From Agelas oroides (taxonomy: Eukaryota; Porifera; Demospongiae; Agelasida; Agelasidae), in the NCBI GenBank assembly GCA_949130485.1, contig OX422188.1:447391-511390 (forward strand): 64,000 bases of DNA. Direction: 5' to 3'. Positions 21,648-62,505 of this stretch are shown here, piece by piece. Both the position numbers and the translations under genes were made by a program. The notes beneath the pieces were generated by a model that saw only the letters and a program-made list of their open reading frames with translations, was not told the origin of the DNA and searched no databases. Position 1 is the stretch's first letter. Every line of letters begins with the position of its first letter.

Positions 21648-24600
21648 CAGAGCATGCACACATGCATGCATGCTTCCACGCACACACACATGCATGCACA
21701 CACACATGCACAAACACACACACACACACATCACACACACACACACACACACATGCCTGGAAGGTCTGGATCATCATTCAGAATTGTGACCACGGTGTAC
21801 GTGAAGGGAGAGAGATATACTCCAGGAGAAGAAGCCAGGTACACTTCAAATGTCTTGTTGGGTGCTGGAAAAATGTCATCTTCTCCAAGCAGCAAACGGA
21901 ACTCCTGCGTTGTTTCTCCTGGCAAGAACTCCACTGTGATGGTACGTGGTATATAGTCCACTCCAGCTAAATGATAGAAAATAAATGCACATGATCACAC
22001 CGAACTGAAGGTCAGTCCTGGTTTAACTCTGAGAGTGAGAGAAAGCAAAAATTTCCTAACACCAGAGCTGATTCATGTACCTAAATCTTATTGGTTGGCA
22101 CCAGTTGGTTGCCTAGCTCCACAGCTGACTCACTTACCTATGGCTGCATTCTCAGAGGTGAGTTCTCGGGTCCTAACAAACACCGTTGCTCCCAACCGGG
22201 TGTCTCCGCTCCTTGTGAGGGTGAAGTTGGCTGAGACATTGCTTTCGTACAACTCCATCATGGCACTCTGCAGGGTCACCTGAGGCACTAGTGTCATAGA
22301 ACAAGCATTATGTCGACAGTTACTAGAAATTCAATGGAAGGCTTTGAATGAAAATCCACAACTTGTGCACACACATAGCCTCTTCCCGCTTCCAGTTTTT
22401 GACTGCTTACAATATGCAAACTGTAAGTGACCAAAAACTGGATGGTGGGAAGGCCTGGGAACAATTAAGACTAGCGTATACAACTTTGCATTGCTATTTG
22501 GAATGTGTATACCTTGATAGCGAACAGCTGTCACAGACGTACAATAATGTGACCTTTGAACTCGTTATGTAAACACCTACCATATGGTTGTTTACCAAGT
22601 ATAGTCCCTGACTCACATGCAATTGGCCTCTGCATAGCTCCCCCAAAATACCCGTGCCCTACTCTGAACGACAGCCAGTATGCTATTACACTGAAAGCAA
22701 CCTGAGGGTCTTCGTGAGTAATAAAATGAGTCCCAGGAGGAACGGACATTTGGGCTGCATAGGCACAGATATCTTCAGTATCGACACACTGGATTGCAGT
22801 AAATGTGGCTGTGATAAGTGTTCCATTTATGAGGATATTGGTATTAGATACAGGTGCGGGGACGAGAATATTGACAAAGTTTGTTCCACTTGTTGCTGCG
22901 CTCTGAAACGTGTTGATTGTGTAGTTGGTACGATACTGTTCCACGGGAGGAATCACCACCATGAAGGGATCTGCATCAGTAATACCGTCAACCCGACTTG
23001 ATACCGAAAATTGGACCAGAAGGACTGGATTATTGGACTCAAAGTAGCAAGATTGGTTCGAAAAAATTTGTAGATCAGTTATTTGACCTCTTGTGAGTGT
23101 GACTGGTGAAGATTGACCTCTGACGTTACACACACGTCTGACAATGGTCCCATTGCGAGAGGCAATCACTTTGAATATGTCATACTGTGCTCTGCTTGCT
23201 ATTGGCGCAGTGATGAATCTTGTTCCCCAGGTTGAGGTGGGAGGGATTTGCTCCACAAGCTGATCACAGAACAGCAGGTTGTCCGGAAGGTTCCCACACT
23301 CGTGACCGCTAATGAGCGATATTGGTTTATCAGACAAGACTCTGGAACTAGAAAGATCACTTTCGCTGGAAATAAGAAGTGTTTGTAGACGGTTGAGTAC
23401 AACTGTTTCCATACTGCCAGCTTGTATTGTGTTTCCTCCGATCTGGGTCACAAGGTCCGGGGCAGTTGAGATATCGACCGTTTGGGTGAGACTCAGGGTG
23501 ATGATTGTCTCGTCCTCTGTCGCAACAATGACAAAGGTGCTGTCACCCAGCGGATCTAAAGGCTCTCGTTCACCATCGTCATAGTCTATAAACGCATTCA
23601 TGCGTGGCACAGACACGGCGTAGTATTCGTACCCAGAGTCCGGGAGGTAGACACCTGGCAGCACTTTGAACGTATCAGCGGATGTAAATTCAGTAGCCAG
23701 TGCCACTACTGAGAGCACCTCCCCTTGCAATGACCTCACAAATATACCGTTACCTCTGGTCCTGACATCATCGATCCTTAGATTAGTGTCCAGATCTATC
23801 TCAGTAGGAGATGTCCGGTTGGCAGTATATGTGGTCACCTGTCCCCTGGCCTCGACTGTGAACTGGACATCCCTGTTTTCACTCACTCCCACCAGGAGTC
23901 TGATGTCTGCCCGGGTAAAGAACCCCCCGGGATTGAAATTGCTGAAGAATCCTAGGTAGAAGGCGTTTCCTTCACCAACAAATGCCTCTTCACCTGAAGA
24001 TAAAAAGAAACTTATATAATTCTTGAGAGTTAGTTTCAAATGCCTACGAGGGAGATTATAGAAACAACTAGAGTCAGATGGTGGTAGCTATCTGGGACTT
24101 ACCTCAACTAGAGTCAGATGGTGGTAGCTATCTGGGACTTACCTCAACTAGAGTCAGATGGTGGTAGCTATCTGGGACTTACCTCAACTAGAGTCAGATG
24201 GTGGTAGCTATCTGGGACTTACCTCGACCACATGCGGAAGTGTTGTGTTAATCTAATTACTAATGCACCAAAACCACAAGTTTTGGTTTATTTTGTCTTT
24301 TAGTTGGCATGCACCCATTTTGTCTGCCATCACTTTGTAACAGGAGAGAACAAGTGCTACCATAAATTACTTGTAGTAGGCGTAGAGGGCACTAACTAAT
24401 CACCTACTCTGGTCAAAACGTTGTGTAAAGTAAATACCAGATTTAATAGAATAACAACACACTCATATGCAGTTGACAAGCATGAACTAGCTATACACAT
24501 TGTTAAATTCTTTCTTAATCCCTGCTTTATGTTGTCTTGCCTCAATCAGCATGGTATGAGGCGAAACAGGAAGGTGAAATGCTAGCAGTCAAAATGTCTG

Positions 24601-31278: not shown

Positions 31279-34200
31279 CTCACACATACACACACACACA
31301 CACACAGCTGGTGTGGACTATCAAGAACTTTCAACAGTTATACTATTTGAACCGGGCGTGGTGGAACAAAGAATTCTTGTGGATGTATTTGATGATAACA
31401 TTGCTGGGGAGGAAGAAGAGTCGTTCTCCATAAGACTGGAGCTCGTGCAGTCACCAGTAGGAGTTACTTTTGGCCAGGAAAGGGCTACCATCTTCATCAC
31501 AGACATCAATAGTAAGAATAAATACCGCCATCTTAACAGTGAGAATATGGCGGAGACATTTATAGCCAAGTGTTCTATATGATTCATCCTCCCTTCCACC
31601 CCTTCACTTCTCCCTCCCCTTCCCTCTCCCTTCCCTCCCTCCCCCTCCCTCCCCTTCCCTCCCCCTCCCTCCCCTTTCCTCCCTTTCTCTCCCCTCCCCT
31701 CCCCCTCTCCTTCCCTCCCTTTTCCTCCCCTCCCTCCACACCTCCCCTACACCCTGGCTCCTCTTGAAGCGGTGGAGGTATCCCTGAGTCCAACTACTGT
31801 GGCGTTGAACGAGGATGATGGCACTGCTGTCATCTCTGTCACCAAGACTGGCTCCGCCAGCCGCCCGACAGTTGTGGTGCTCACCTCCCGAGACTCTACT
31901 GCCACAGGTGGGTACTGACAAGATGTGCTGCAGCTGTTTTCAATGACTAGAGTACATTAATGGTACCTTATGCAAAATAAGGTAAGTTTCATAACACACT
32001 GTGATGTTACCTTGGTTTTGTGCCTTGCTCTCATTTCAGCCCCAGAAGACTACCAAGCTATCAATGAGAGTATCACCTTTGCTCTGGCCGATGATGAGTT
32101 CAACATCACCCTCACGATTGTCCCTGACACCGCACTTGAGGAGGACGAGCAGTTCACCCTGGTACTCTCAGTACCCATGGGAGAGCCGGTTGACATCTTG
32201 CAGCCAGTTGCTGATGTAAACATCCTCAATGATGACGGTTAGGGATGGGGAATATTCTCAATCTCGTAGAGTTGTTTATAGCTCCATTTTTTCCAACTTG
32301 TACCGCAGCTGTGCAGGTACGGTTGGATCAAGTTTCTCGGCTTGTGGATGAATCAGACAGCAACGTCACTCTGATGGTCCTCAAGGAGGGCACTAACCGT
32401 CGTCCCTTCACCGTCACCGTGGTAACACGTCCTGTGGAAGCACAAGGTGGCTGCCAGCTGGCATAAAATGAATGATAGTTGTGTGCGTACTCAGACACTC
32501 GTACCACTAAAGCAACTTGGACCAATGGAAAGAGGATTTAGAACTTTAGGCAATGTAGCTTGTTCTGCTCCTCTGCCCATGCAGGGGTTTCAAATGGAGC
32601 ATCCCCCCCATCCCACACACCATACCTTTTTTCTTCCACAGAGTTCACCGACTTTGTGCCATTCTCCCGGGATATTATATTTGGTCCTAATGATACCAAT
32701 CACTCTGTTACCATGGAGATCATAGACGATAGGGTTGTTGAAAGATCAGAGCTATTTGTTGTGGCACTGACTACCACAGACGTAGGGGTAGAGATCGAGA
32801 GGACACAGCGAGAAGCCACCATTGTCATCAGTGATGATGATAGTATGTCTCCCCATCAGTCTGTCTGCCTGTCTAAATACACCTGATGACCCCTTCTTCT
32901 CTCCCTCCCTCCCTCTCTTCCTCCCTTTCTCCCTCCCATCTCACTTTTTAGCTGTTCAGGTTGGCTTTGACCAGGCCAACTACACAGTGGTGGAGGGGGA
33001 GGGTGTGGTGTTTGTGAGGCTGGTGATGGTAGGGAGGACTGCCCGGCCAATACAAGTACAGCTCTCCACTATTGATGGAAGTGCAATGGGTAAGAATACA
33101 TATAAATAGCCTCATTCCCAGCCCCCAACTTTACGTACTGCAAGTGGGGGGCCTGGGAATGAGACTAAAGCTACATAGCCTCGTTCCCAGACTCCCCTGC
33201 TCCGGAATGCGAACATTGAAGTTGTGCAGGTGGGGAGAGCCTGGTATTTTTTCTCACATGAGAACTGTCAAAGGAAGAAAGGGGGTAGAAAGACCTTAAT
33301 TGCACATGGGTATAGAAAGAGCGAAGGCAGTGGGTGACTTACTTCACATATATAGCTAGCAAGGGGCGAATATCCTACATACCGAGCATTGAACGTATAG
33401 TTGGATAAACAACATGTTAAACATTGCCTTTCTGTTCTAAAACCACTGGTCCTTTTCCGATTACGTCATGCTCACATGAGAAAAGATACCAGTGTCTCCC
33501 TGCGTATACACATTCGCGTTCCGGAGTGGGGAAGCCTGGGAATGAGGCTACATGTTCAATTGATGCCGTACCTTCATAATGCCACAGATTCTGCAGACTA
33601 TGAACAAAGATCAGATATCGTTGTGTTTGATGTGGGTGTTGTGGAACTGGTGGTGAATATCACCATCCTCGACAACAGTTTGTCTGAGGAGGACAGACGC
33701 TTCTTCGTGCAGCTGCTTCCTGTGGATGGTACGGTAGAACTGATGAAGGAGAGAAGGAGAGCTTCGGTCCTGATCGTGGACGATGATGGTAAGCACTGTG
33801 ATGTCATTGTGATGTCATAGGCGAGAAGTACTGGGAGATGATGGACAGCTGTTTTCCTTCCCTCCCCCCTCCCCCCTCCTCCCCTTCCCTTTCTCCATCT
33901 CCCTCAGTCGTGGTGGTGGGATTCTCCACTGCCAGCTACACAGTAATGGAGGGAGAGAGGCAGGTCACTCTGAGAGTCATAAAGACAGGGAGCACCGCCC
34001 AGTCCATCCCTGTAGAGTACTTCACTACTGGAAATGGAAGTGCCGTGGGTGAGAGGCTTTCCGTTCTGTCTAGCTGTTAGTCGTATGTGTTGTAAGCTTT
34101 CTATGACTATTTGTGACCATATACACCTTCTTTAGTTGGTAAGGCTTGATGTTGCTATAGAGCACATTTCCATAGTAACACTAGAATAAACTAGCTGGGT

Positions 34201-37200
34201 CAATAGCTTTCAATTCTGGGTGTGTATGAACAATGATAATGTTGCACCGGTCAGGTTCCAGTGATGACATGAGATCTCACAAATTGAATCTGTAATCTTT
34301 GGCTCAAAGTGCTGCCACCAAAGCAGTGGCCAGGGCACAGCACGCCTGCACTGGTAGGGCACAGCCTCTAGTTGCTAGGGCACGTGCCCCAGTGCGCCCC
34401 AGCTTGGCTACACCACTGCACCAAAGTTAGCTAGGTTCATATCACTAGCCAGCTCACTCTTGCAAGCATCAAAACTGCTTTTATTTCTGCAAGCCATGAA
34501 AATCTGGGCCAGGGCTGGGAATGAGACTACGTCTTTACCCTAAGAGCAGTCACTAAGGACTGATAGCTATTGTTAGAAACAGCTAGATAGTAACACTAGG
34601 ATAAACTAACTATAGTAGCTTTCAGTTCTCATATGCTAACCTACAATTGTATACTACTCTCCAATGTGCTATATATTCACCGTGCATTCTGGCCCCATTC
34701 CCAGGCCAGTTGGAAGGGTTCTGGGAATGATGTTATACAGTGGAACCTCTCTTAAAGGACACCCCTGAAATAATGACACCTGGTTAATCTGGACACTTGA
34801 CCGAGTTCCGACTTTATATAAATACATAATATATATCCCTGAAATAAGGACACCTCACTAATCAGGACAAGTATTTTGGTCCCAAGGGTGTCCGTATTAG
34901 AGAGGTTCCACTGTAGCTTCTGAATCATCTCCCCCTGTCTTCCACTCCTCAGCGGGTTCCGACTATACTGCTGTTTCTCCAACGGTCATTATCTTTGGTG
35001 AGGATGAGACGTTCCTCCCGGCTAGCGTAGCAATCATCAACAACAGAGTGGTGGAGGGGGTGGAGGAGTTTGGGGTGGGAGTGAGGGTGGTGGAGGGGGA
35101 GATGGGGGTGATCATCAGAAACGGCACTGCAGTCGTCCGCATCGTGGATGATGATGGTTCGTTTGTGGTTGACTGTACTAACGTATGATGTACATATTTA
35201 CTGTATTCTTTTTTCATTTTTCATTCAACCATTCACTTTGTGTCCAAAGTAGCAAAATGAATGTGATATAGGAAGATCTAGATCTGAATTGTAACCGTCC
35301 ATTTTTGTATCCTTGGTCTCTTCTAACTGGTTTGTTCTTTGTACTCAGAGGTGGTTGTGAGGTTTGTGCCAGCCGTCTACAACGTGAGTGAGTCGGTGGG
35401 GTTTGCGGGGGTCAGATTTGTCAAGGAAGGAGAGGCAGAAACCAATGTTACTGTGATGTTCACAACAGAGGGCAGGCAAGCCATCAGTGGCAGAGACTTT
35501 GTACCCCAGAGTGACAACGTGACCTTTGCACCCTCCGATGTTGAAAAGTTTGCTGCTGTGGAGGTGATAGAGGATGGGGTCTACGATGGAACCAAGAGTT
35601 TCCTTGGGGTGCTTACCCCCACGTCCCCCGGAGTGAGGATCGAGGGAGGACCAGCCATCATAAACATACTGGACAATGATGGTAGGACAATTACAGCGTG
35701 TAAAAAATAGAAGATTAAATGCTATAGCAATTAAAAAAAGGAAGCTTTAGGGACACTGTCATTTCGACATAGCCTCATCTGGGATGATTCACAGTGGCCT
35801 GTTAACACATGCACTCACACTGAACTGCATGCAGCTGTGGTGATGACCTTTAACCTCTCGGAGGTGACAGTGAGTGAAGCTGACCATGTGGCAACTCTGA
35901 GGATTGTGAAACAAGGAAGAAACAATGTTCCAGTGACCTTTACCCTCTCAACACTCAATGGCACTGCCAGAGGTATTCTTGCACCACAATAGCTACTGCA
36001 GTATACCACAGTAAAGTACAGTATACCACAGTAAAGTACAGTATACCACAGTATATCACAGTATATCACAGTATACTACAGCATATTACTGTAACAGTAT
36101 ATACAGGATACAAACTGTAACAGCCACATGGATACCATATATGGTCATACACAGGTCCTGGTGATTTTGAACCCTTGTCGGTCGAGATGACCTTTCACCC
36201 CAATGACAGTGAGCGGCTCGTTAATGTCACAGTACTGGAAGACGATGTTCTGGAGAGTATTGAGCAGTTCACTGTGGTGCTGTCCCCAAGAGTGGGCGTG
36301 GCCAGAGAGTCCAGAGCAACCATTTTCATTGAGGACAGCACACCAGGTACGTACTTATGTATACACTAGTCGGCTCCTAGCTCAACCGTCATCTTACCCC
36401 TCCTCCCCTCCCTCTCTCCTTCCATTTTTCTCCCTTCCACTCCCCTTTCTTCGGCTCTCCCTCTCTCCTCCCTCCTCCTCCCCTCCTCCTCCCCTCCTCC
36501 TCCCCTCCTCCTCTCTTCTTCTCCCCCTTCCTTCTGTTCACCTCTCTTCTACCCTTCTCCTTTCCCTCTTCCTTCACTTCCTCCCTCTCTCCTCCCCTTC
36601 TCCTCCCATTGCCCTCTCCTCTCCCAGGTCTTGCTGTGGGGTTTGACCGGACAGAGTTCAATGTTGACGAGAATTCTCAGGAGGCAGTGTTTCAAGTGTT
36701 CATATTTGGCACAATTGAGAGATCCATTGCAGTGCAGTTTCTGACTGAGAATGGAAGTGCAACAGGTAAAATTCTTCTTGCCTCAGTTGGAAATTGTTAT
36801 GTTGTGATTGAGGCTATAATAGCGGAAAGTGAAAAGCCAGCCATCGCATGAATCCAGAGTTCCTTGCTAGAATCTCAACATCGATTTTGATATCTGCCCA
36901 GTCGATCTTTACGGGTCACACTGTCATAAAATTTGCCAATTTTTTACCTGGCTGAAATTCAATGCTGTAACAAAAACATACACAATTTGGAGCCATGGCA
37001 ACAAGCTTGGTTTACAGGCGTTGTGATGTAATATGTAATGTGGTATTATGGGATGGACACTTGACAATACAAATAGTACATCTGCCGTATATGTCTAAAC
37101 TTACTTCTTGCGGACTAACTGGGTGATACACATGTATGTATATTGACATATGCTTGTGTAATTTCGTAGAATATGCGACTCAGTTGTGTGTTTAATTTTC

Positions 37201-38170
37201 CTCATGAACCAGCTGGAGAGGATTATGTAGCTACCATGACAACAGTGACCTTTGACCCTGGGGAGAGGATGAAGGAGGTGGGTGTGACCCTACTTGATGA
37301 CGTTGTTTTGGAGGGGACGGAGGATTTCCAGGTGACACTCAGCTCGGAGGAGGTGGATATCGTACTAACACCGGGAACAGCAGTCGTGAATATTGTGGAG
37401 AATGATCGTGAGTGATATATGGGACAGTGAGAGATAGAGCTGGTCTTGGGTCATACGTCATAGGTAGTCAAGCATCATATACCAGAAGTCATACACACTA
37501 TTGCATGAGCAAGCGTCACACACCATTACATGGTCAGATGTCATATGCCATTACTAGCCTCGTTCCCAGGCTCTCTCCTCAAAAACGGGAGGAGGAGAGA
37601 GCATGGGAACGAGGTTATACCATTACATGGTCAAACATCAAGTATTCACCACAACTGCAACTAGTAGTTGGCATTTGTTTGGTGCATGTTCAAGGTCACT
37701 GTGGACAAGCTGCCGATTTTCACAACTTCTGGAAACTAGTTTTGGTGCAAAACAGACCAAAAATGATCTTGTGACATTGCTACCTGGCTACATGTTCAGT
37801 GTGACTCTTTGTATATTCTGAAGGTGTTATGGTGACCTTTGACCCTCTGTTCTACAACGTGACTGAGGGGACACGAGAGGTGATGTTGCGGGTGGTGAAG
37901 AAGGGGGAGAGCATTGTTAGTGTGAACGTTACCTTCAGTACAATGGACAACAGTGCTCTTGGAGTCATACGTGAGTTGTTGGATGAGTGAAGTATAGCGA
38001 AGGAGGGAGGGAGGGAGGGAGGGAGGGAGGGAGGGAGGGAGGGAGGGAGGGAGGGAGGGAGGGAGGGAGGGAGGGAGGGAGGGAGGGAGGGAGGGAGGGA
38101 GGGAGGGAGGGAGGGAGGGAGGGAGGGAGGGAGGGAGGGAGGGAGGGAGGGAGGGAGGGAGAGAGGGAGG

Positions 38171-38239
<69 letters not shown>

Positions 38240-40036
38240 GGAGGCAGGGAGGGAGGGATCATTTTTGGTAGCGATGCATGTATACTTGCATAGTTTTCTT
38301 GTCTCCCTCTCTTCACCCATTTTCCTCTCTCTCTCTCCTCTCTCTCCCCTCTCACCTCCTTCCTTCCCTATCTCCCTCCTCTTCCATCCCTTCCTCTTTT
38401 GTCCACAGTGCTGTCAGACTATGTTCCCTTGACCCGGACTCTGGTCTTTGCTCCAACGGAAACAGAGCACACCATTCCCATAGAGATCCTGGACAACAAT
38501 GCTGTGGAAAGGACAGAACGATTCTTTGGACAGCTGGCAATCCCCCCAGGGGAGCAGGGGGTTACTCTTGTTGGGGACACAGCCTCTGTGCTCATCTACG
38601 ATGAGGACGGTGAGATGTCCCCTCCCTCCTCCTATTTCTTTCCCTACCCTTTCTCTCTCCCTCCCTGCTCTCCCTCCCTACCCTCCCTCCCTCTCTCAAT
38701 CTGATCTCTCCCCTCCCTCCCTCCCTCCCCTCCCCTCCCTCCCTCTCTCCCCTCCCTCCTCCTCTTCCCCCCTCCCCCTCTTCCCCCTCCACCTCTTCCC
38801 TCCCTCCTTCCCTCCCTCTTCTCCCAGTGGTGTTTGTGGGATTCGAGCGGACAACACATTTTGTACGAGAGGACAGAATGAGTGTAGTTCTCAACCTTGT
38901 CAAGTCAGGAGAGAGCCAGGTGGATGTGGATGTTGTGTTCACCATGCAAGACCGCACGGCAACTGGTATGTTCATGTAATGTCGTTAACTTCAATCATAA
39001 TGTGTCGTTATGATATTTTTTTCAGTGCAAAAGAGGAACGAAAATACTTAAAATCGTCATGATTGGAAATTTTTGACATGAACATTTTTTCGATCTACCC
39101 TTCCAGTAACGCGCAATGCTTATACATGCATTTTTAAACATTTAATTCGTGTTGGGTATGTTTTAAGATAGTTCTCTCCTTATGTAAGCAAAATGCCATG
39201 CGTGTTTGGACCGTATTACTGCAACCAACTATATTATTGATCTCTTCCTTATAGCCTCATTCCCAGACTCCATACCCCCAAGTTCCATCACTTACAGTAT
39301 CAGGCAATGATGGCATGAGAATCTGGGAATGGAGTCTGGGAATGAGGTTATCCCTTCCTTTGTGTGGGACCAGTGACACAAACGCTGAGGTTTGTATTTC
39401 TCCCCAGCCAATGATGATTACATCATGGATGCCCAGACAGTGCGGTTCCGACCTCTGGACACAACCCAGCAAGCTTCGGTGCAAATTCTTGATGATTTCA
39501 TTGTTGAAGGAGCGGAGGATTTCATTGGTCAGATTCGGATCCTTCCTGGACCTAGTGTTGAGGTGCTGAATGGCACAACCACCATTGTGATCCAGGATGA
39601 TGATGGTGTGTGTGCGTGTGTGTGTGTGTGTATTCATCATTTTGCACTTAACAATACATCATGATCACATGGCATCACATATCACATGATATCACATGAC
39701 ATAATACAACATCATACATCACATGACATAATACAACATCAACAACATCACATGGTATCACATAATCTCACATGACACATGATATCACATGACATTGCAG
39801 TGATAGTGCATAGAGATAACATCACATTGGTACCACGGTCGTGCCTATGTGACATCATGTATGCAATGTTTTGTGATGGTCTTTTGACAGTTATTGTGGT
39901 GAGGTTTAACCAGTCAGTGTACATGGTGGAGGAGGGGGAAGAAGCCGTGGTTCTGGACATTACCAGGGAGCAAGGGACAACTGTGATTCCCCTCAACATC
40001 ACCCTCCGCACATTGGACGTGAACTTCACTGCAACT

Positions 40037-40071
<35 letters not shown>

Positions 40072-43000
40072 ATGTGCGTGTGTGTTGTGATGATGAATGT
40101 GTCCTGCAGGTGGTGAGGACTTTGAGCACATGACTTACCAGGCTGTGCTGCTACCAAACACCACCCACACTTCTGTCTCTGTCCGAGTGTTTGACGATTC
40201 CTTGTTAGAGGGAAGAGAGGAGTTTGGTGTGAGGCTGTTGGGGGGTGAGGGGGTTGTGGTGACGGAGGGGGATGCTCGAGTGGAGATTGTGGATGAGGAC
40301 GGTAAGGGATGGTCATATGGACACGTAAGGGTGGTGACACTTGGGTTCATTGTAGCAATATGGATGAATGAATGAATGAATAAGTGAATAAATAAGTGAA
40401 TGAATGAATGAGTGAATGAATGAATAAGTGAATTAATAAGTGAATGAATGAATGAATGAATGAATAAGTGGATGAATGAATGAATAAGTGAATAAATAAG
40501 TGAATGAATGAATGAGTGAATGAATAAATAAGTGAATGAATAAGTGCATGAATGAATGAATAAGTGAATAAATAAGTGAATGAATGAGTGAATGAATGAA
40601 TAAGTGAATGAATGAATAAGTGGATGAATGAGTGAATAAGTGAATGAAGAGTGAATGAATAAGTGAATGGAGTGAATGAATGAGTGAATGAATAAATGAA
40701 TGAATGAATAAATAAATGAACGAGTGAATAAATGAATGAATGGATGGAGTGAATGAATGAGTGAATGAATAAATGAATGAATAAATAAATGAATGAGTGA
40801 ATGAATAAATGAATGAATGAATGAGTGAATGAATGAATGAATGAATAAGTAAATGAATGAGTGAATAAGTAAATGAATGAATGAATAAGTAAATGAATGA
40901 GTGAATAAGTGAATGAATGAATGAATGAATGAGTGAATGGGGATGGATGAACGGATGAATGAATGAATGTATTTGTTACAACACCCGAGACAGTCCTCAT
41001 AGGCTCACAAGTACAGTTATTCAGTTGGTGTTTCCTAATCTGAAACAAAGCGTACGTCGATCAAACAATCCCATTTCCATTTCTGTGAGCTTAATCTGGC
41101 TCTCTGATTGGTCAGGTCTCCAGTAACTGTTCTTTTTTTGCAGCACTGCGTGTGGGGTTTGAGGAGGTGAAGTATGAGGTGTGGGAGGATGGTGGGGAGG
41201 TGGAGGTGTGCCTCAATAAGTCTACTCAGGTTGACGTCAGTTTCCAGCTCAGAATCACCACATCACCTGCGTCCGCACAAGGTACCGTCCATGTGTGTGT
41301 ATTACAGGATGGGAGATGAGTCATGGAACAAAACTGTAGCTCGTGCTCCCCCCCCCTCCTCTCCTCCCCTTCCTCCCCTCTCCCCCTTCACTCCTCCCTT
41401 ATATCCTTCCCTCCCCCCTTCACTCCTCCCTTTCCTCGCCCCCTTCACTCCTCCCTTTCCTCCCCTCCCCCTTCACTCCTCCCTTTCCTCCCCCCCTTCA
41501 CTCCTCCCTTTCCTCCCCTCCCCCCTTCACTCCTCCCTTTCCTCCCCTCCCCCCTTCTCTCCATCCCTCTCCTCCCCCCTTCACTCCTTCCTTATATCCT
41601 TTCCCTCCTACCTCCTCCCCTCTCCCCTCTCCCTCTCAACAGCTAACATTGACTACCTTCCCATCTCCCAAGTGGTGACATGCCAGCCAGGGGATAGCAA
41701 GATGTGTGTCTCCATAGCCATACTCAACGACACCACTCTAGAAGCCACTGAGAGCTTTCGGATCACTGCGGAATTAGTTACCATGGAAACAGAGGATGTG
41801 GCCAGGTTAACTGTGGCTCCAAGCGAGACTCAAGTGTGCATCATTGATGACGACAGTGAGATATTTCATAATGCCACTAGCCATATCGTAGTCATAGTAG
41901 CAGGTGAACAGCTGCATATGTAGTCTGGTAAGCTCTGTTTCAGCTACTACTGTATTTTTTCGAATAGACGCCGCCCTCGAATAGACACCGCCCTCGAATA
42001 GACGCCACCCTTGAATAGTAGCCGCACAATCAGGGGCTCTGAGCAAATTAAACACCGCCCTTGAATAGTAGCCGCGGTTACTATATGCAGCACATGCACA
42101 TGTATGTGAATAGTTTCTGACGACGGCCATCGGGCTAGCGCAGGGCTGTTTGTGTTGTACAACTCATTACCACGGCTGACAGCAGGACTGATCATGAGAG
42201 GCTGTGCCTACTACCGACAGCGTCTAATAATCGTCACTGTATCACTCGTACGTACCTTATCCAGCTATCTTTGATGTCTGCGGGTTTTCCAAGGAAGAAA
42301 CGGCACCCTCGAATAGTAGCCGTGGCATCTGATTAAAGAAATATGTTACTCAGCACACAAACTCTAAACCATCTGCCTGACCACCCTCAACTTGTGTTCA
42401 TAATGTGTACTAGGCACTCACTCAGGCTCCCCCATAATGTCCTGTCAGATAGACTGCAACCGATGGAAAGCTGGGCGGGGCCTGGGAACGAGGCCACATG
42501 CCAGATTAGGTCAGGAGATAAGGCTAGTCCTCTCCTGCGTATTACATCACTATTGCTTTACCTCCTCAGCGGTGACATTCAGTTTTGATCAACCAACCTA
42601 CACTGTGAGTGAAATTGATGGCAGTGTCATAGTGAGAATCATCAAGGTCGGCCGAGCCGTGACTCCCGTCACCATAGCATTCCAGACAATTAATGGCTCA
42701 GCACAAGGTAATTAATTCTATGAACACTTTATGTCATTTTTTCATTTTTCTTGGGAAGAGGGGGGATTTTTATACATTGGTATGCAAAAACATTCTCAGG
42801 CCTAGGGAGGGATATAGCTATTTTTTATAACTGCATGGTTACCAATGCAACATAAAATAGACACATGACCAACATGTTGCCTAGGCAACAGGTTATTTAT
42901 ATTACGACTCCCACAACATACAGCTTCTACTGACTATGAGACACGAATCCAGGTGGTGACCTTTGACCCTGCTGATATTGAGCGAGATGTTTCCATCCCT

Positions 43001-46000
43001 ATACTCTCTGATGGTGTTGTTGAGAGCACAGAGGAGTTCTTTGGACAGCTGTCATTTGTTGAGGGAGAGAGGAGGCGGGTCAGGCTGGGACAGATTAACT
43101 TGACGGCCATCACCATTCTAGACAGTGATGGTGGGTCATCTTGCTGTTATGGATGTTGTCAGGATAGAGGGTGGGAGAGATCAAGTTTTTGTAGTTGGTG
43201 TACGTGTTAGCTAGAACTTTGCACGTTTCTGTAGCGATCATTCTCTCTCTCTCTTGTGATAATATCACTTGTTTCATCCTTCCTCCACTCCTTCAACTTC
43301 TATTCTACTATTGCTCCCCCCCCCCCCCTCCTTCCCACCCTTCCTCCCCCCTCAGTGGTTGTATTCCAGTTGGCCCAAGGGAGCTATTCTGTGCGTGAAG
43401 ATGTCGGAATGGCCAATATAACAGTCATAAAAGTTGGGGAGAGTGACAGCCCCCTCTCTGTCCTCCTACAAACCCAGGAAACCCAATTTAGGATAGCTAT
43501 TGCCAGGGGTAAGTATTGCCTGAAGCCTGAAGCCTTGGCTTGGTGAGAACAGAGTGATTGTAGATGTTCTGTCTAGTGTGTAGACAGTTTTGATGTTGTG
43601 AGGCAAAAGTAAAGCCAGCAATCGTTGGGAATTTTATCCGGGGCCCTTGGTTTGAACTCTTGACCGCTGAACTACCATCGCTAGGCAACCACTAGCCTAC
43701 ACAACCTTCTATACATGAGTTCTTCTGCTTCCGTTCCCTTATAGTTTGATATGTCCGGCCGAGCTATATAGTTAGTAAACTACAGTATACTGCAAAGTTT
43801 CATCTATGCGTATGAATCTATATAGTTAGTAAACTATAGTATACTGCAAAGTTTCATCTATGCGTATGAATCTATTTTGTAGCTTCCAGAGACTATGAAA
43901 ACACTACACGTCTATTAACCTTTGAACCCGGAGTCACCCAGCAGGAAGTGGGTGTGGTCATCCTAGAGAATGAAGTGTTTGAGAGAGACGAGGAGTTTGT
44001 CGTGGCACTGAGTGTGCCGATGGGGGAGACAGGCGTGGAAGTGAGACAAGGAATGGCTACCATTACCATTAAGGACAATGATGGTAAATCTCTCTGCATG
44101 GTTCCTACATTGCTCCAGATGCAGCTACTTGAAAAACAGTCTGGTCCATTTTAATAAGTTGTAGTGTTTTGCAGCACCTGGTACTGAACTGTTCTCCCTC
44201 CTTTCTTCCCTCCCTCCTTTCTGCCCTCCCTCCTTTCTGCCCTCCCTCCCTCCTTCTGTCTGTAGTGGTCAGTTTTGGGTTCCAGCTTCTCAGCTACACG
44301 GTTTCTGAGGGCGACTCCTCGGTGACAATTGTAGTGACCAAGAGTGGGGAAAGTGAGGCACAAGTCGGGATCCTCTTCTGCACCCGTGACAAGGAAGCCG
44401 TAGGTAAATATGGGAGTGTGTATAACATTAGTGTTGCTAGCCTCATTCCCAGGCTCCTGAAGAGGAACCTGGGAACGAGGCTAAGTGCTGCCACAATATA
44501 TTGTGATATACAACATTGCACAATAGTTTTTCTCATCTCAATAGTGTTATAGGGAACCTAAACGGGTGGTAGAAGGCTGCATTATGGCTTGTACGTAAGT
44601 TGATGATATGTATAGGTGAATTAGTCAACTAGAACACAAAACAGGGCATGATTCAAAGGCATAATTATGATAGAAATAGCTCATATTGTAATATAAATAT
44701 CGGTAGCTCTCAGGAGCCCCTCCCTTTTTTCTAATGCACTCTTGCAGCTCTAGGGAATATTACTTTTGTTCACTTGTTTAATTAGAACGTTTAATTTTGT
44801 TCTTTGTTAGATCAGAGAGACTATACAGGCATCTCTACTCTGCTGAACTTTGACCCTGGAGTTACTGAGCGAGCACTGGGTGTGGCTATCTTGGAAGATG
44901 AGGTGGTCGAGGGAGATGAAGAGTTTTTTGTGGTGTTGAGTGGGGGGAGGGGTGTGGAAGTGAGGGAAGGAGAGAACAGGACCAATGTTACCATCACTGA
45001 CAATGACGGTGGGTGCCCTTGAAACCATTTTGATGTCTTATTGTATACCCTCGTAGCTGTTGCACATGTAAGCCACATATTATGTAGTTACCTATCTGTT
45101 GCAGTTGTCACGGTGGGATTTGCTTCAGAGAGTGTGTTGGTTCGTGAGGACAATGGAACCGTATGGCTGGTGCTGGTGAAGAGTGGGGAGAATGCAGTCT
45201 CCGTTGCCGTAGAGTTCACCACCACAGATGGAAGTGCAACAGGTGAACAGCCATAGCTTTGTGGCTCCATGCTAGCCTTGAGCCCAGGCTTTCCATTCTG
45301 GATTTTGTGTCATGGCTTCTAATTTTTACTATATGAAGCTAGCATGGCTTTCCATTTTAGATTTTGTCTTGCAGCTGTACAAAAAAAAAAAAAGAAAAGC
45401 CATGACATTTGCATGATGCCAGTTTAACCCAAGGACAGAATATCAGCTGGAGATATTATTCCCCGTCTCACCTCAGCTCCTGAAGATTTTGGTAGCCTAG
45501 CAACAGTGGTGACCTTTGGCCCCAGTGCGGCAGGCTCCTCTGTTGTACGAGTGAACATTGTGGATGATGAAGTAGTGGAGGAGAGGGAGGTGTTTACAGC
45601 TAGACTGAGAGTGCCGTCTGGTCAGTCTGGAATTGTCCTGGGACAGGAAAACATCACAGTCACCATTGTGGAGGATGATGGTAGGTTTGACAATGGTGGT
45701 AGGTTTGACGATGATGGTAGCTTTGACAATGATGGTAGGTTTGACAATGGTGGTAGGTTTGACAATGGTGGTAGGTTTGACAATGATGGTAGGTTTGACA
45801 ATGATGGTAGGTTTGACAATGATGGTAGGTTTGACAATGATGGTAGCTTTGACAATGATGGTAGGTTTGACAATGGTGGTAAGTTTGACAATGGTGGTAG
45901 GTTTGACAATGGTGGTAGCTTTGAGGATGATGGTAGCTTTGACAATGATGGTAGGTTTGACAATGGTGGTAGGTTTGACAATGATGGTAGGTTTGACAAT

Positions 46001-49000
46001 GATGGTAAGTTTGACAATGATGGTAGGTTTGACAATGATGGTAGGTTTGACAATGGTGGTAGGTTTGACAATGATGGTAGGTTTGACAATGATGGTAAGT
46101 TTGACAATGATGGTAGGTTTGACAATGGTGGTAGGTTTGACAATGATGGTAGGTTTGACAATGATGGTAGGTTTGACAATAGTGGTAGGTTTGACGATGA
46201 TGGTAGGTTTGACAATGATGGTAGGTTTGACAATGGTGGTAGGTTTGACAATGGTGGTAGCTTTGAGGATGATGGTAGCTTTGACAATGATGGTAGGTTT
46301 GACAATGGTGGTAGGTTTGACAATGATGGTAGGTTTGACAATGATGGTAAGTTTGACAATGATGGTAGGTTTGACAATGGTGGTAGGTTTGACAATGGTG
46401 GTAGGTTTGACAATGGTGGTAGGTTTGACAATGGTGGTAGGTTTGACAATGATGGTAGGTTTGACAATGGTGGTAGGTTTGACAATGGTGGTAGGTTTGA
46501 CAATGGTGGTAGGTTTGACAATGGTGGTAGGTTTGACAATGGTGGTAGGTTTGACAATGGTGGTAGGTTTGACAATGATGGTAGGTTTGACAATGATGGT
46601 AGGTTTGACAATGGTGGTAGGTTTGAACATGATGGTAGGTTTGACAATGGTGGTAGGTTTGTGACAATGGTGGTAGGTTTGACAATGGTGGTAGGTTTGA
46701 CAATGATGGTAGGTTTGACAATGGTGGTAGGTTTGACAATGATGGTAAGTTTGACAATGATGGTAGGTTTGACAATGATGGTAGGTTTGACAATGGTGGT
46801 AGGTTTGACAATGGTGGTAGGTTTGACAATGATGGTAGGTTTGACAATGGTGGTAGCTTTGAGGATATCTCTTTCAATAGACCATGAAGCAGCCTAGCTT
46901 TGTCATACCTGTTTTACTGGCTCTCTTTCACAGGAACTCCTTCACCCATACCTCCTTCACCCATACCTCCTAACACATGTGAAGTTTCAGATACTTTACT
47001 CATAGCTCCTTTCCAAAGTCAGGGACAAAACTTCAACTTTCGTGGCATATGTGAACATGTCCTGGTCACAGCATGTGGAGAACAAGACCCACCTGGATTT
47101 GTAGTGACAGTCGATTTCCTCTCGAGTAATTTAGACATGGGGAGAGTCGGCATAAGGATCGGAGAGAAGAGAATTGTGATCTTAGAAGACTTATCCCTTC
47201 AGCTAACAAACCTTGGAGATCCGATTTCTGTAGCACTCAATGTCACAAGATACCGAGATGGTATTGTAATTACACAAAATAACAACGAGAGCACAATAGA
47301 CCTGACTGGATTTGGACTCCAAGTTTCTCGCAGGATGGACGATCAGAATATTCTGGTGGTGAATGCTACCAGACTGCAGACTGATGTGTGTGGTCTCTGT
47401 GGTACTGTGGAGGGGTCGTTACTTTACGGAGATCGCAGAAGAGTGGCGAGGATTGGGAACCGGTCAGAGATACAGCAATTTGCTGACAGCTGGAGGGTGA
47501 ATGCCAGGGACCAGTTCCTTCGTGAAGAAAGGAGGGAGTGTAGTAAGTGGAACGTGCGCAATGTTTGGAGCATGGTATACATGCTGAAAATCAGTAGAAT
47601 TTCCGCACAGTTATGGTTAAAATATAGATAGTTCCATTTTTACTTGATGCGTTCACAATATGTAAGAATTGCTACCTAGATACATTTATGTGAGCACATT
47701 TCACTGTAGCTGCTGGCCTGGCATGGTGATACCAAGCAAGAGCGCATAAGAACGGGCGGCTTGAGTAAGAGCGTGTGACTCCAATAGAAGCCCGTAGTCC
47801 GGTTGAAATTACTGAACCGTACTAAAAATAGAACACCCAGTCACGTGCTTAGCAACCATGGCTTATGTCTATGCAGCATGCCCAGTACATGTTACTATTT
47901 TTAGTACTGGAGGTAATTCCGACCGGTTTCAAATTTAGGGGGGTTACACGCTCTTACTCTAGCCGCCCGTTCTTATGCGCTCTTGACCAGGGTATATAGA
48001 GCATTCTACTGTAGCTGTATGGTGACACCAGTGAACCATATTATCATAAGCCAATAATTATTATTTCATCTATTACATCAATTGCGGGAGGATTAATTTT
48101 ACTGTAACTGATGATGGTAGTTTCTGTTTTACCCTTTATCCAGGTCTCCTAAATAACGACACTGTGATTGGAGACCCGCTGTTTACAGTTCCCTTGTACG
48201 ACAGGTCTGGATCTACACCGGGATCTGTCCCTCCAGCTCTCTGTTTTGAGATCCACGGTGCAGCAAACCGGACATTCAACCTCGTCTCGGACGTGTGTAC
48301 CTCAGTAAATGCCCAGTATACTCCCATGAACATACCGGAAAATGGTAACATCATCGATGCAATTGGTATCAGAGCTGTAAATAATCTGGGTTGGTGTTTA
48401 GATGTAGGAGTTAGTCTGGCTACTAACTGCACTCCAATTGTGTCAGAGGGCAATAGGACTTTCTCGACTAGTCGTTACCGATCTGGTGGTATATCGGTGA
48501 GCAAGCACAGAGACAGGGTGAGGGTTTCCGTACCAAACTGTGAGAACGTACAGCTGGTGATGTGGGTGGAGTGTGAGGAGGTGAGGGGACAGAGAATGGT
48601 GAAGTTTATAATCTCTCGTGGAGTCAATCTTCGACCTACTTCACATGGACTTTTAGGTAAGCATTCTGATATAAATATTTACCTGTCAATAGTGCTAGCT
48701 GGTTCCTATCTACAGAGCTGAAGAAAACATGTCCGCCTATCTATCTATCTATCTACCTACCTATCTATTTGTCTATCCCTCTACCTACCTATCTGTCTGT
48801 CTATCTACCTATCTGTCTATCTATCTATTTATCTATCTACCTAGCTGTCTATCCCTCTGTTTATCCCTCTATCCTCTATCTACCTATCTGTCTATCCCTA
48901 TATCTATCTATCTGTCTATCCCTATATCTATCTATCTATCTACCTATCTGTCTATCCCTATATCTATCTATCTATCCTCTATCTATCTATCTATCTATCT

Positions 49001-50612: not shown

Positions 50613-52477
50613 ACTGGACCTACCATAAACTGTGCCAGCAGTTCCATGTTGCTGATCACATACCAGCAGCTGACTGACTGTACCTCTCCTTCCTGTCTGT
50701 TGCCCATCTCCACCAACACTCCAGGAAAACACTGCAACATGTAAGAGAGTCCCATAACCATACAAGATCATGGAGCTGCTCGTGTCATTGGTGCTGTTTA
50801 GCACTTCAAGCTGACCAGCAGCAGTTGGTAACAGAATTACACATAAAATGCTATCAAGTGTATGTTGGCAGTTCCAAGTAGAAACTGAACGTTATTATCA
50901 CATGTATTTCGATTGCACCACTGTTCAAACAGGTCCATACAAATTTCATAGTCGTATCAGATGGTGCATGTGTTTACACACCATCCACAATAAAGTGCAT
51001 ATGAACCTTGAAAGAAAGTCCAGTAATACAGAATGCAGTGATGAAAATTGAAATACACAAAACAATATACTCTATTTTTATCCAGGACTGCCACATGTAC
51101 ATAACACACAAAACACTACTACCCTTGATCTACCCCTAACATGTACATAACACACAAAACACTACTACCCTTGATCTACCCCTAACATGTACATAACACA
51201 CAAAACACTACTACCCTTGATCTACCCCTAACATGTACATAACACACAAAACACTACTACCCTTGATCTACCCCTAACATGTACATAACACACAAAACAC
51301 TACTACCCTTGATCTACCCCTAACATGTACATAACACACAAAACACTACTACCCTTGATCTACCCCTAACATGTACATAACACACAAAACACTACTACCC
51401 TTGATCTACCCCTAACACGATCCAACACTCATTTGTCCATTTGTTTTAGCTTAACGACATCCTTTTGTTGAGAAGAACATGTACCTGCAAGTGCCAGAAG
51501 GTTCTACCATAGCGATCTTCTCCCAGGGGTGTGTTTCTGAGTGCCAAGCTACAAGCACTCTGCTCACGCTGCAGAAAATGGCAGATGAGGAGGCATGGAG
51601 GCATGGAGGAAGAGAGGAAGAGAGGAAGGGAGGGAGCTTGAGAGAGGGAAGGAGAGTTGGAGGGAGAGTGGTATTACCTCAGCGGTGGTCCTCATCTCTG
51701 CCAGCTCTTTGGTGAAGTCTCTTCTCTTCTCCTCAATGTCACTCAGAGAACACCCACCCTCACACAGCTGCTTCAGATCATCACTGGGAACATTGTGTAC
51801 GCAGGAGAGAATGTTTACAGTAACACCTTCTTATTTGTGCTCACACACATTGTAACTGTCTCACCTGATCTGCTTAGTTCTGTCTCTCTCCCTCATACGA
51901 TGCTCCTTCCTGCACTTGTCTGCCCTGTCCCTAGCGGAGTCCATGTAGCCCACAATCACATCCTAAAGTTGAAAATCACAAAACACAAGAAATGAAATGA
52001 AAACACAAGTTGGGGGCATGGGAGCCTGGGAACATGGTTACTCACGCTCTGCAGTGCCTCCTGGCAGAGGTGCTCCAGGATGATCACAGACTCCTCTAGA
52101 CTGGCCCCTTCACCTTTCAAAGTGACAAACCCCTGACAGAGAGATGAGAAATGACTGGAATTGTGGTACAGTTGGTTTGCTTACTGTTTTAACGATTGGG
52201 ATCCACTTCTCCTCTCTCTCACCAGTTCTCACTCTTCCCATCTTTCTCTCTCCCACCCTCCTTCTCCTCCCCCTCCCTCCCTCCCTCCCTCTCTCCCTGC
52301 ATACATTCCTGCCTGCTCTGTGGAGGTGCTGTCTGGCAACTTCCTCCAGATCTCTCTGTTTCTTGGTGGGTCTCAGTTCCTTCCTCAAGCTCCCATCCTC
52401 CTCCGCCACCACTCTCAGCAATGCAAGGTAGACCTCAGAGAGACCACGCCCACCAGAGAGCATCGCACAGAGGTCCA
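50340..52477 (-). CDS. Gene C DDT end and WHIM region, C-terminus
   Basis: Seven small exons. 52305-52477 completes DDT (VDLCAMLSGGRGLSEVYLAL). 52046-52132 gives VTLKGEGASLEESVIILEHL. 51485-51568 holds LGEDRYGRTFWHL, the Asp-Arg-x-x-Arg-x-[FY]-W signature of WHIM. 50624-50731 has a VSCWYVISNMELLAQFM segment and 50340-50474 the ECLHPQGRREKQL helix, then the stop. Confidence 0.88.
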
Positions 52478-55400
52478 CTGGAGAGGATTAGTGTGAAATG
52501 AAAGTGTATAGTGTGTGTGTGTGTGGGTGTGGGGGGGGAGGGGGGGAGGACTAAGGCTGTTACTCACCGACATTGTGTGTGTGTGGAGGGGGGGAGGAGG
52601 GGAGAACTAAGGCTGTTACTCACCGACATTGTGTGTGTGTGGAGGAGGGGAGGACTAAGGCTGTTACTCACCAACATTGTGTGTGTGTGGAGGGGGGGAG
52701 GACTAAGGCTGTCACTCACCGACATTGTGTGTGTGTGGAGGGGGGGAGGAGGGGAGAACTAAGGCTGTTACTCACCGACATTGTGTGTGTGTGGGAGGGG
52801 GGGAGGACTAAGGCTGTTACTCACCGACATTGTGTGTGTGTGGAGGGGGGGAGGAGGGGAGAACTAAGGCTGTTACTCACCGACATTGTGTGTGTGTGGA
52901 GGGGGGGAGGAGGGGAGAACTAAGGCTGTTACTCACCGACATTGTGTGTGTGTGGGAGGGGGGGAGGACTAAGGCTGTTACTCACCGACATTGTGTGTGT
53001 GTGGAGGGGGGGAGGAGGGGAGAACTAAGGCTGTTACTCACCGACATTGTGTGTGTGTGGGAGGGGGGGAGGACTAAGGCTGTTACTCACCGACATTGTG
53101 TGTGTGGGAGGGGGGGAGGACTAAGGCTGTTACTCACCGACATTAAGCTTCCTCTTCAGTTTGAGTGCGCTGGCAAACGTGTGAAGGAGCTCACACACAA
53201 CCAACAGTCGTGGTACAAACTCAGCTGACACACCAAGATCCAGTGTTGGCAATTCAGGAAGGGAAGGAACACCGGTTGTCACACAACTGTCCGGTGAATC
53301 ATCAACTAGCACAACCTCCTCATTATCAGCGCTCATTAGTGTGGCTCCCTGCAGACAAGAGAAACAAACCGACACACATTTCACGAAAATTAGAATCAAG
53401 CACCATGCATGAACAATCATGAACCATGCAGCACCACAAAGCTACTAGCGGTACAGTCTCATTCCCAGACTCAAAGAAAGCTGGTGGCTAGCCTGAGAAC
53501 AAGGCTCTCATAGAAGATGGTTTGGGAAAGACATTTTTTTCTTTCTCCAAAGCCTAAGTTTGAGGCTCCACGCTTCCCTCACCCCCACAGCAGGAGCACT
53601 GCACAGCTCTTTCATCCTCCTCTTCTCCCCTGCCTTCTTCTCCTTCAGCTCCTGGAGCTGCCTCTTCTTGCACTCTTTCTCCCTCTCCCTCTTTCGCTTC
53701 CGTGAACTCCGCTGTGCCTCCTTGAGAACGCTTCTTGCCATCCGCAGCCTCTCTCGCACTGCTTGCCTCTTCATCCTCTCCTCTTCCCTCAACCTCTCCC
53801 TCTCCTCCAGTGCCTTCTGCCGGCACACCTTCAGCTCCTCCCTCACCCTTTCATTCTCGTCAATCTTAGTTGACCGAATTGCATCAAACTTCATCTGTTT
53901 CAAGGACCCCAGCTCTTCCTGTTTCTTTTTGCTCAAATCACAATCTCTGTCCTCCTCCACCGTAACAACCTCGACTTGAGAAGACTTAGACAAACACGTC
54001 GTCTCTCCACTAATTTGATTGCACGAGACCTTCCTGAAATCCTCCGCAGCATACTTCATCGGCAGCACCCTCATCCTAGGAGATCTCCGGAGAAGAGCAC
54101 TTATCTTCTCCCCACTCAGATTTCCATTCCGTGCAGACCGATTTCCAGCACCGTATCTTCTAGGACAGACTTTACGTCTGGTTGATCGTCGACAGAAACT
54201 TTCTGGTGTGGAAAACACACTTTCTGGTTGCAATTCTTTGTCCTCAAAACGTTCATTACACGGTTCTTCATTCTCCTGTCCATTCTGCACTGTTGTTGCA
54301 TCGACCTGCATAACATGTGTCAAAGAAAGACAGATGTGATCGTCTGCATTCTGGAATACACAGATTTGGTTATTGTGAAGTTTCACCAGATTTATTTGTA
54401 CCACTTGTTCGTCACCAAACCCCAACAAAGGATTTTGCTAGTTCTTGGGTGAGCAGCCTTAGCTACACGCTCATCTTTCTCATGTCTACAGCTTACTTGT
54501 AACTGGAGGTAAATCCTGGTAAAAATTTAACAGTTACATTCTAAAGACAACAGGTGCACATGAGCACAATAATTTTCATCAGTTAAATTTCATCAAATTG
54601 GTGACGATTACATCTGGTGAACATTTTCTACTACCGTATAGCCAGAAAATTTGACGGGGAATTAAATTTGGAGGTTTGGCGGTCAGGGTTGAAACCGCCA
54701 AATTAAAATCTGCCAGTATGATTTTCACCCACAGTGCATAATGACGTAATGCATGCAGTAGCGCTCTTGCCCCCCCCCCCCCCGCGGCCACTCTACGCAA
54801 GCTGTACATGTACATATAGCTAGCTCAGCACTAGTATGCTGCCAGTTATGTTTCTTGTAAATTTGCCGACTCACGGCATTGTTCAAGTGCCTCAAGCGAG
54901 AGGACAGCAACGCTCCCTGATAAACGCGCACGCAATGTTTATGATGACATAATACGCTGCGAGGTGCCACCGCCAAATTTAAATTCCGCTAATATTTATT
55001 ATGCTCAGTTTGGGGCCAAACCGCCAATATTTCCGGCTACACGGTATATGGTAAACTCTGGCACAAAGGAACTTCAGAGGTACAATTGTGTACCACTCTT
55101 ACACACACAGTACAGGTGTTTACAATAGCACATACAGTGTACACAATGCAGTATGCGTCTGCTAGTACATAGCACGTGATATTCAGCACCTCGACTTATG
55201 GTAAACTAGAAAGAAATATGATTACGATTATGTGGGGTCAACAAGGCCAAGTGTATTCATAGTTTGCACTGCAAACACAGAGTATGGTGACAGAGAAAGA
55301 CAATATTTGGCTATCAGTAACACCCCTTTCTTGTGTCCTCAACATTCCAGTTACATATTGAAAATTCATTAATAGTGTTTACAGACAACTGTGTGATTGA

Positions 55401-58326: not shown

Positions 58327-62505
<4,179 letters not shown>

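Follow-up and report, generated by a model that had tools for sequence, protein, structure and literature searches.

The human gene IFI6 (6-16, G1P3) is reported to carry a minisatellite of 26 12-bp units where an exon ends, with additions of 4 and 8 residues to its product. According to PMC4526556, two downstream repeat units serve there as splice donors, resulting in three mRNAs and different isoforms, and the work on this multiple-donor minisatellite by Turri, Cuin and Porter (1995) is listed among the references of PMC4526556, PMC2572611, PMC3618361, and PMC2915984. Here we describe an array of splice donors in the genome of the sponge Agelas oroides (259 Mb, 141 contigs), within a stretch of 64,000 nucleotides that is referred to as the window (G000:C6:447391-511390). 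At 45681..46870 on its + strand, a minisatellite of 66 units with the consensus GTAGGTTTGACAATG[A/G]TG lies between the last Calx-beta exon and the VWD exon of a probable sponge adhesion gene, and a donor-like hexamer opens every unit (unit listing, Tandem Repeats Finder (TRF), and genome pattern search). We lean towards reading it as a young minisatellite that arose when sequence spanning a 5' splice site was duplicated in tandem, of which the first donor or donors would mostly be used while the bulk would be ordinary intron.

The units stand head-to-tail and are contiguous, 65 of them measuring 18 bp and one (unit 55) 20 bp, and TRF delimits the array at 45675-46862 with a period of 18, 65.9 copies, and 93% matches. 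Unit 1 is the donor at 45681 of a coding exon (45477..45680, + strand) encoding the latter half of a Calx-beta domain (Pfam PF03160, E 2.6e-8, computed on the open frame 45428-45679); this exon ends in phase 1 with GATGATG|GT, and its final GATGATG already fits the repeat. The array end is separated by 63 bp from the VWD exon (46934..47542, + strand, PF00094, E 1.5e-10), which is entered and left in phase 1. Units 1-54 (45681..46652, + strand) would read in frame as (G-R-F-D-N-[D/G])n if included, unit 55 (46653..46672, + strand) carries a 2-bp insertion that leaves its own donor in phase and later donors out of it, and units 56-66 (46673..46870, + strand) follow with out-of-phase donors, as seen from the unit listing, translation, and in-silico splicing. 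The GRFDN[D/G] spacers constitute an acidic D-N-D-G repeat without a Pfam match to the repeat peptide. A search of the genome with a 34-base pattern spanning two units, in which as many as 3 mismatches were allowed, gave 60 matches, all within the array (reversed control: 0), and no copy of the repeat was found with it elsewhere in the 259 Mb; the array was thus rejected as a dispersed repeat, given its single genomic place in this search. It was also rejected as a coding exon throughout, the frame being shifted by unit 55 and reaching a stop at 46897. A block of seven units has been copied within the array (units 13-19 equal units 32-38, at an offset of 19 units), and later growth included such block copying.

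We spliced the array in silico at all 66 donors in turn, fusing the exon and whatever part of the array precedes the donor to the VWD exon. From donors 1-55 there resulted an open frame into the VWD exon in 55 of 55 cases with 0-54 inserted hexapeptides, and donors 56-66 met a stop after the junction in 11 of 11. Much of an earlier sequence-only reading of this DNA is thereby borne out: the donor of the last Calx-beta exon is indeed the exact point where the array begins, the phase is kept into the VWD exon without a stop, and the 20-bp unit 55 does set the frame limit. Its range of 0-54 hexapeptides holds as well, but the donors in phase number 55 and not 54, and where it saw G|GTAGGT recurring every 18 bases, GT is retained in 66 of 66 units and the 18-bp length in 65 of 66, but the hexamer varies (GTAGGT 54, GTAGCT 7, GTAAGT 5). 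The observation of a donor array is confirmed as real and was slightly understated, while its interpretation as a whole is partly supported. Donors 56-66 would seem dispensable, given the 2-bp insertion in unit 55.

Donor strength was measured by U1 pairing only, since a donor weight matrix turned out to be dominated by pre-donor codons and automatic donors were misplaced (e.g. +35165, +45013), and this measure was dropped. The pairing energies are -8.8 kcal/mol for GTAGGT, -9.1 for GTAAGT, and a weak -4.7 for GTAGCT, so that 59 of the 66 donors are near-equal and seven are weak. Among the 55 in-phase donors there are 45 GTAGGT (donor 1 included), 4 GTAAGT (units 12, 19, 24, and 38), and 6 GTAGCT, hence 49 appear similarly fit for use, whereas 6 are weak. 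This near-equality argues against a purely intronic array, in which donor 1 alone would be used, units 2-66 would be inert, and an intron of 81 bp would simply have been lengthened to 1253 bp; the use of downstream units in human IFI6, as described in PMC4526556, points the same way. We regard this alternative as unlikely, although the relatives and a second array in the window, both treated below, speak in its favour.

The open frame and the good pairing of 49 of the 55 in-phase donors are also what a working length-diversity device would offer, with many of the 55 donors used to insert 0-54 hexapeptides that vary by splicing and by allele. However, openness is guaranteed by the unit itself: in this frame, none of the 54 single substitutions in each of both common units creates a stop, and the open frame is therefore not evidence of coding. 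The 11 distinct units encode 11 distinct peptides and give no sign of protein constraint, although the events are few and the power is little; missing stops and missing synonymous change were rejected as evidence for want of power. The in-frame property may reflect luck or tolerance rather than function. Taken with the relatives and other arrays considered below, we find such a device quite unlikely, and we judge a diversity function in the full 0-54 form to be unlikely.

Relatives of the locus were sought in three protein searches and consist of translated frames of public contigs; since they continue into the intron, they represent genomic DNA or unspliced RNA. The search with the VWD exon gave 16 matches, of which 11 were read and P0012-P0016 (44-47% identical) were left out. 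In the search yielding P0017-P0020, scoring covered only the 7986 candidates with the most words in common, and P0019 and P0020 were dropped from its four matches as unrelated low-complexity similarity. No relatives were found in the viral and species-genome collections. P0001 and P0002 have a VWD exon 93-94% identical to that of the window and preceded by a matching intron tail (window LSYLFYWLSFTGT, P0002 MSHLFYWLSFTGT). On the other side of the intron, P0021 and P0022 end with ...ITVTIVEDD GKFEDLSFNRP and a stop, i.e. a single donor-like GK followed by unique intron-like sequence, and the same single GK position is seen at the junctions of P0023 (GKFENLSFNRP*) and P0024 (GKFLRTSLSIDH..., with unique intron-like sequence after it). 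The more distant P0018, P0025, and P0026 terminate directly past VEDDG[RK][FV]. P0017 reads ...ITVTIVDDD GRFDNG GRFDNN GRFDND H GRFDNN GRFDND GRFDNN GRFDND GRFGYLSFNRS*, an array of eight units in one frame throughout, one of them longer by one residue. Over an exon core of 56 residues, P0017 is 91% identical to the window, P0021-P0024 86-88%, and P0018, P0025, and P0026 64-68%; thus, among these eight relatives, the array occurs only in the nearest. We take the relatives as orthologues from elsewhere because the nearest paralogue found in the sponge's own genome, with 150 of 346 candidates scored, is only 50% identical. The exon start SAP[ED]DFG is conserved in the five relatives that reach this point.

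Including the window, donor counts are 1, 8, and 66 (1 and 8 as deduced from protein letters), so copy number varies among relatives. The sequence-only reading had expected variation between alleles; it is present between relatives, but none was seen between alleles, as the flanking 501 bases gave one full-length match in the genome and no second haplotype appeared. The differing counts, and the irregular unit of P0017 that is longer by a whole residue and keeps the frame, would fit a length-diversity device. P0017, however, runs into the intron (LSFNRS*) and is hence a genomic or unspliced frame, and the ancestral gene probably had just one donor and lacked the insert. The single-donor state of the relatives is at the same time what a purely intronic array would predict.

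The ancestral intron can be approximated from the window itself. Unit 66 and the unique intron tail together make up 81 bp (46853..46933, + strand), the start of which reads GSFEDISFNRP* and fits the GKFEDLSFNRP* of the single-donor relatives, suggesting an ancestral intron of about 81 bp. When the exon end is joined to the post-array sequence, a 6-bp direct repeat, GAGGAT, stands at -10 and +8, 18 bp apart across the donor, and no other donor-straddling repeat of more than 4 bp was found in the stretch tested, its own parts aside. GAGGAT is retained in units 14 and 33 (GTAGCTTTGAGGATGATG) and in unit 66, and is likely the seed of the array. These sequences are most simply read as the product of one origin of the array, in an ancestor shared by the window and P0017, with 8 and 66 units reached separately. 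In such a course of events, GAGGAT would have seeded the first duplication, and further growth would have been tolerated whichever donor was chosen, because the end of the exon and the donor are both restored by each unit and 18 is divisible by three. Most transcripts would then be spliced from donor 1 or the next few, so that the Calx-beta and VWD domains would be separated by no or few added hexapeptides, while most of the array would be ordinary intron.

Several points weigh against this course of events. The donors of the relatives are read from protein letters of translated frames, and the single-donor frames show only about 30 intron bases before the stop. The seed repeat is deduced from the two edges of the window's own array, its second half has N for D in P0023, and P0024 is without it. 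Donor use is itself inferred. Moreover, where many equal donors compete for U1, intron-proximal sites can be favoured, and these are out of frame here. Should they win, this allele would mostly yield frame-shifted messages from units 56-66 and the array would lower or switch off expression. These units leave the shortest intron, and all 11 lead to a stop; three introns nearby measure 407, 96, and 234 bp; the neighbouring exons and the VWD exon, however, are open and conserved, which fits a working gene, and we hold this outcome to be highly improbable.

The favoured reading, a young minisatellite spliced mainly from its first donors, can be compared with other donor-spanning arrays. A second one lies in the window on the - strand (52518..53144) in an unrelated gene and consists of 12 copies of ATGT[C/T]G|GTGAGT at spacings of 47-56 bp, starting from the donor at 53137, where the exon ends ...AATGTCG|GTGAGTAAC. 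Its flanking exons, when joined, are DDT-like (E 0.025, below the Pfam cut-off), which lends weak support to the exon junction. Most of its spacings are not multiples of three, and since its first donor is followed by an in-frame TAA, the full protein can come from donor 1 only; for that product, the array has to act as purely intronic. A third array (60718..61273, - strand) has 12 copies of a GG|GTAGGT donor, the first at 61252, mostly in 42-bp units comprising the donor and roughly the final 20 bases of the exon; the exon ends ...CTCAGAGAGATACCCACGG|GTAGGT, and the joined flanking exons match DZF_N (E 9.4e-8), which supports the exon junction, and belong to a DZF-domain gene that we presume to be NF45/ZFR-like. 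With spacings of 42, 73, 41, and 33, only donors 1-3 of its 12 are in phase. The second array, having no in-frame use past its first donor, indicates that donor-spanning arrays need not serve protein diversity, and because both are mostly out of frame, such arrays persist without much in-frame benefit; this, too, speaks against a length-diversity device at the Calx-beta exon. Two further arrays lie on the - strand of the window. Four identical 40-bp units with AGGTAAGT in each lie at 24065-24225 and are seemingly intronic; they were not counted as donor-spanning, no exon being apparent just before them. Seven identical 46-bp units at 51093-51417 contain GTACATGTT, the same nine bases with which the intron begins at a donor-like site about 65-70 bases upstream.

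Beyond the window, 20 stretches of 10 kb at round-number positions were sampled, giving 35 array rows. Among six closely inspected arrays with donor-like units, one (L036:6572-6866, + strand) is anchored at a donor: its units of ATG|GTAC[A/G]TTG start from the donor that closes an fn3-like exon (E 0.018, below cut-off), reading GATG|GTACGTTG with five further copies. Given how dense genes and arrays are here, a few array-donor overlaps could occur by chance, and we claim no rate or significance for donor-spanning arrays from the sampled set. For Calx-beta paralogues, 20 stretches were fetched from 62 listed places, 19 of which aligned (L062 did not), and in none of these 19 exons did TRF find an array starting at the exon end, the donor being not clear in L061 and L063; in L055, a 50-bp unit occurs twice some 80 bases beyond the exon end. 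A more far-reaching proposal would be that of an adhesion, possibly self-recognition, gene in which a hypermutable array of donors serves as a dial for length, with copy number (1, 8, 66 or more) setting which GRFDN[D/G] spacers can separate the Calx-beta stalk from VWD so that individuals and cells differ in the length of the adhesion protein, and with donor-spanning arrays arising repeatedly in the genome; this combination we deem very unlikely.

The host gene has multiple Calx-beta domains followed by VWD, as Calx-beta-like exon matches extend on the + strand from 31772 to 45679 (tblastn), and Pfam matches were obtained on three of the last Calx-beta exons and on the VWD exon; the exon at 48146-48718 had no significant Pfam match (best E 0.14). 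Pyrimidine-rich tandem arrays stand directly 5' of Calx-beta exons at 36460-36604, 41377-41593, and 44194-44249 and look like expanded polypyrimidine tracts. The intron before the exon at 45477 holds a short dispersed repeat (about 45260-45330) with dozens of genomic matches, some in inverted pairs; 53 are partial and mostly fall within query bases 50-128. Large clusters of Calx-beta exons are located at G000:C6:352000-378400, C13:8364000-8417000, and C14:7564000-7580000, with evenly spaced copies (e.g. 2448 bp in C6, 1032 bp in C13, and 1171 bp in C14), which suggests tandem domain duplication.

The locus thus presents a donor-array minisatellite caught at three sizes in relatives together with its likely seed, so that one can test how such arrays are born and grow and how they affect the choice of 5' splice sites. 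With its dozens of almost identical donors, which are in frame as far as a known position and out of frame beyond it, the array offers a natural experiment on which of many equal donors is chosen by the spliceosome. If inserts are made, they would bring length variation to a type of gene linked to sponge adhesion and allorecognition. Sponge aggregation factors have a Calx-beta, VWD, and Wreath architecture, and the host gene resembles them in its many Calx-beta exons and VWD, with further Calx-beta clusters on the same contig. A review (PMC10815962) ties Calx-beta aggregation factors to allorecognition in Amphimedon.

In the literature searched, neither this locus nor the donor-spanning arrays of this genome were found. 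Intron gain by tandem genomic duplication, the subject of PMC4974935 and PMC3443670, likewise includes a splice-site motif in the duplicated segment, but here the intron seems only to have been lengthened, with none gained. Relatives without the duplication do not seem to lack the intron, since single-donor frames enter intron-like sequence and stop, and P0001 and P0002 share the intron tail before VWD; as the intron seems present in the single-donor state, the array does not resemble intron gain. With IFI6, on the other hand, it shares a tandem repeat that supplies several splice donors, starting at the donor of a coding exon, with units that recreate the donor and have a length that is a multiple of three. 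The sponge array differs in its gene, its 18-bp unit, its 66 units, and its one internal frame break, and it is known here from DNA alone. It is an IFI6-like case of the already known donor-supplying minisatellites, for which a human precedent exists, and it differs from that precedent in having visible single-donor and 8-unit relatives.

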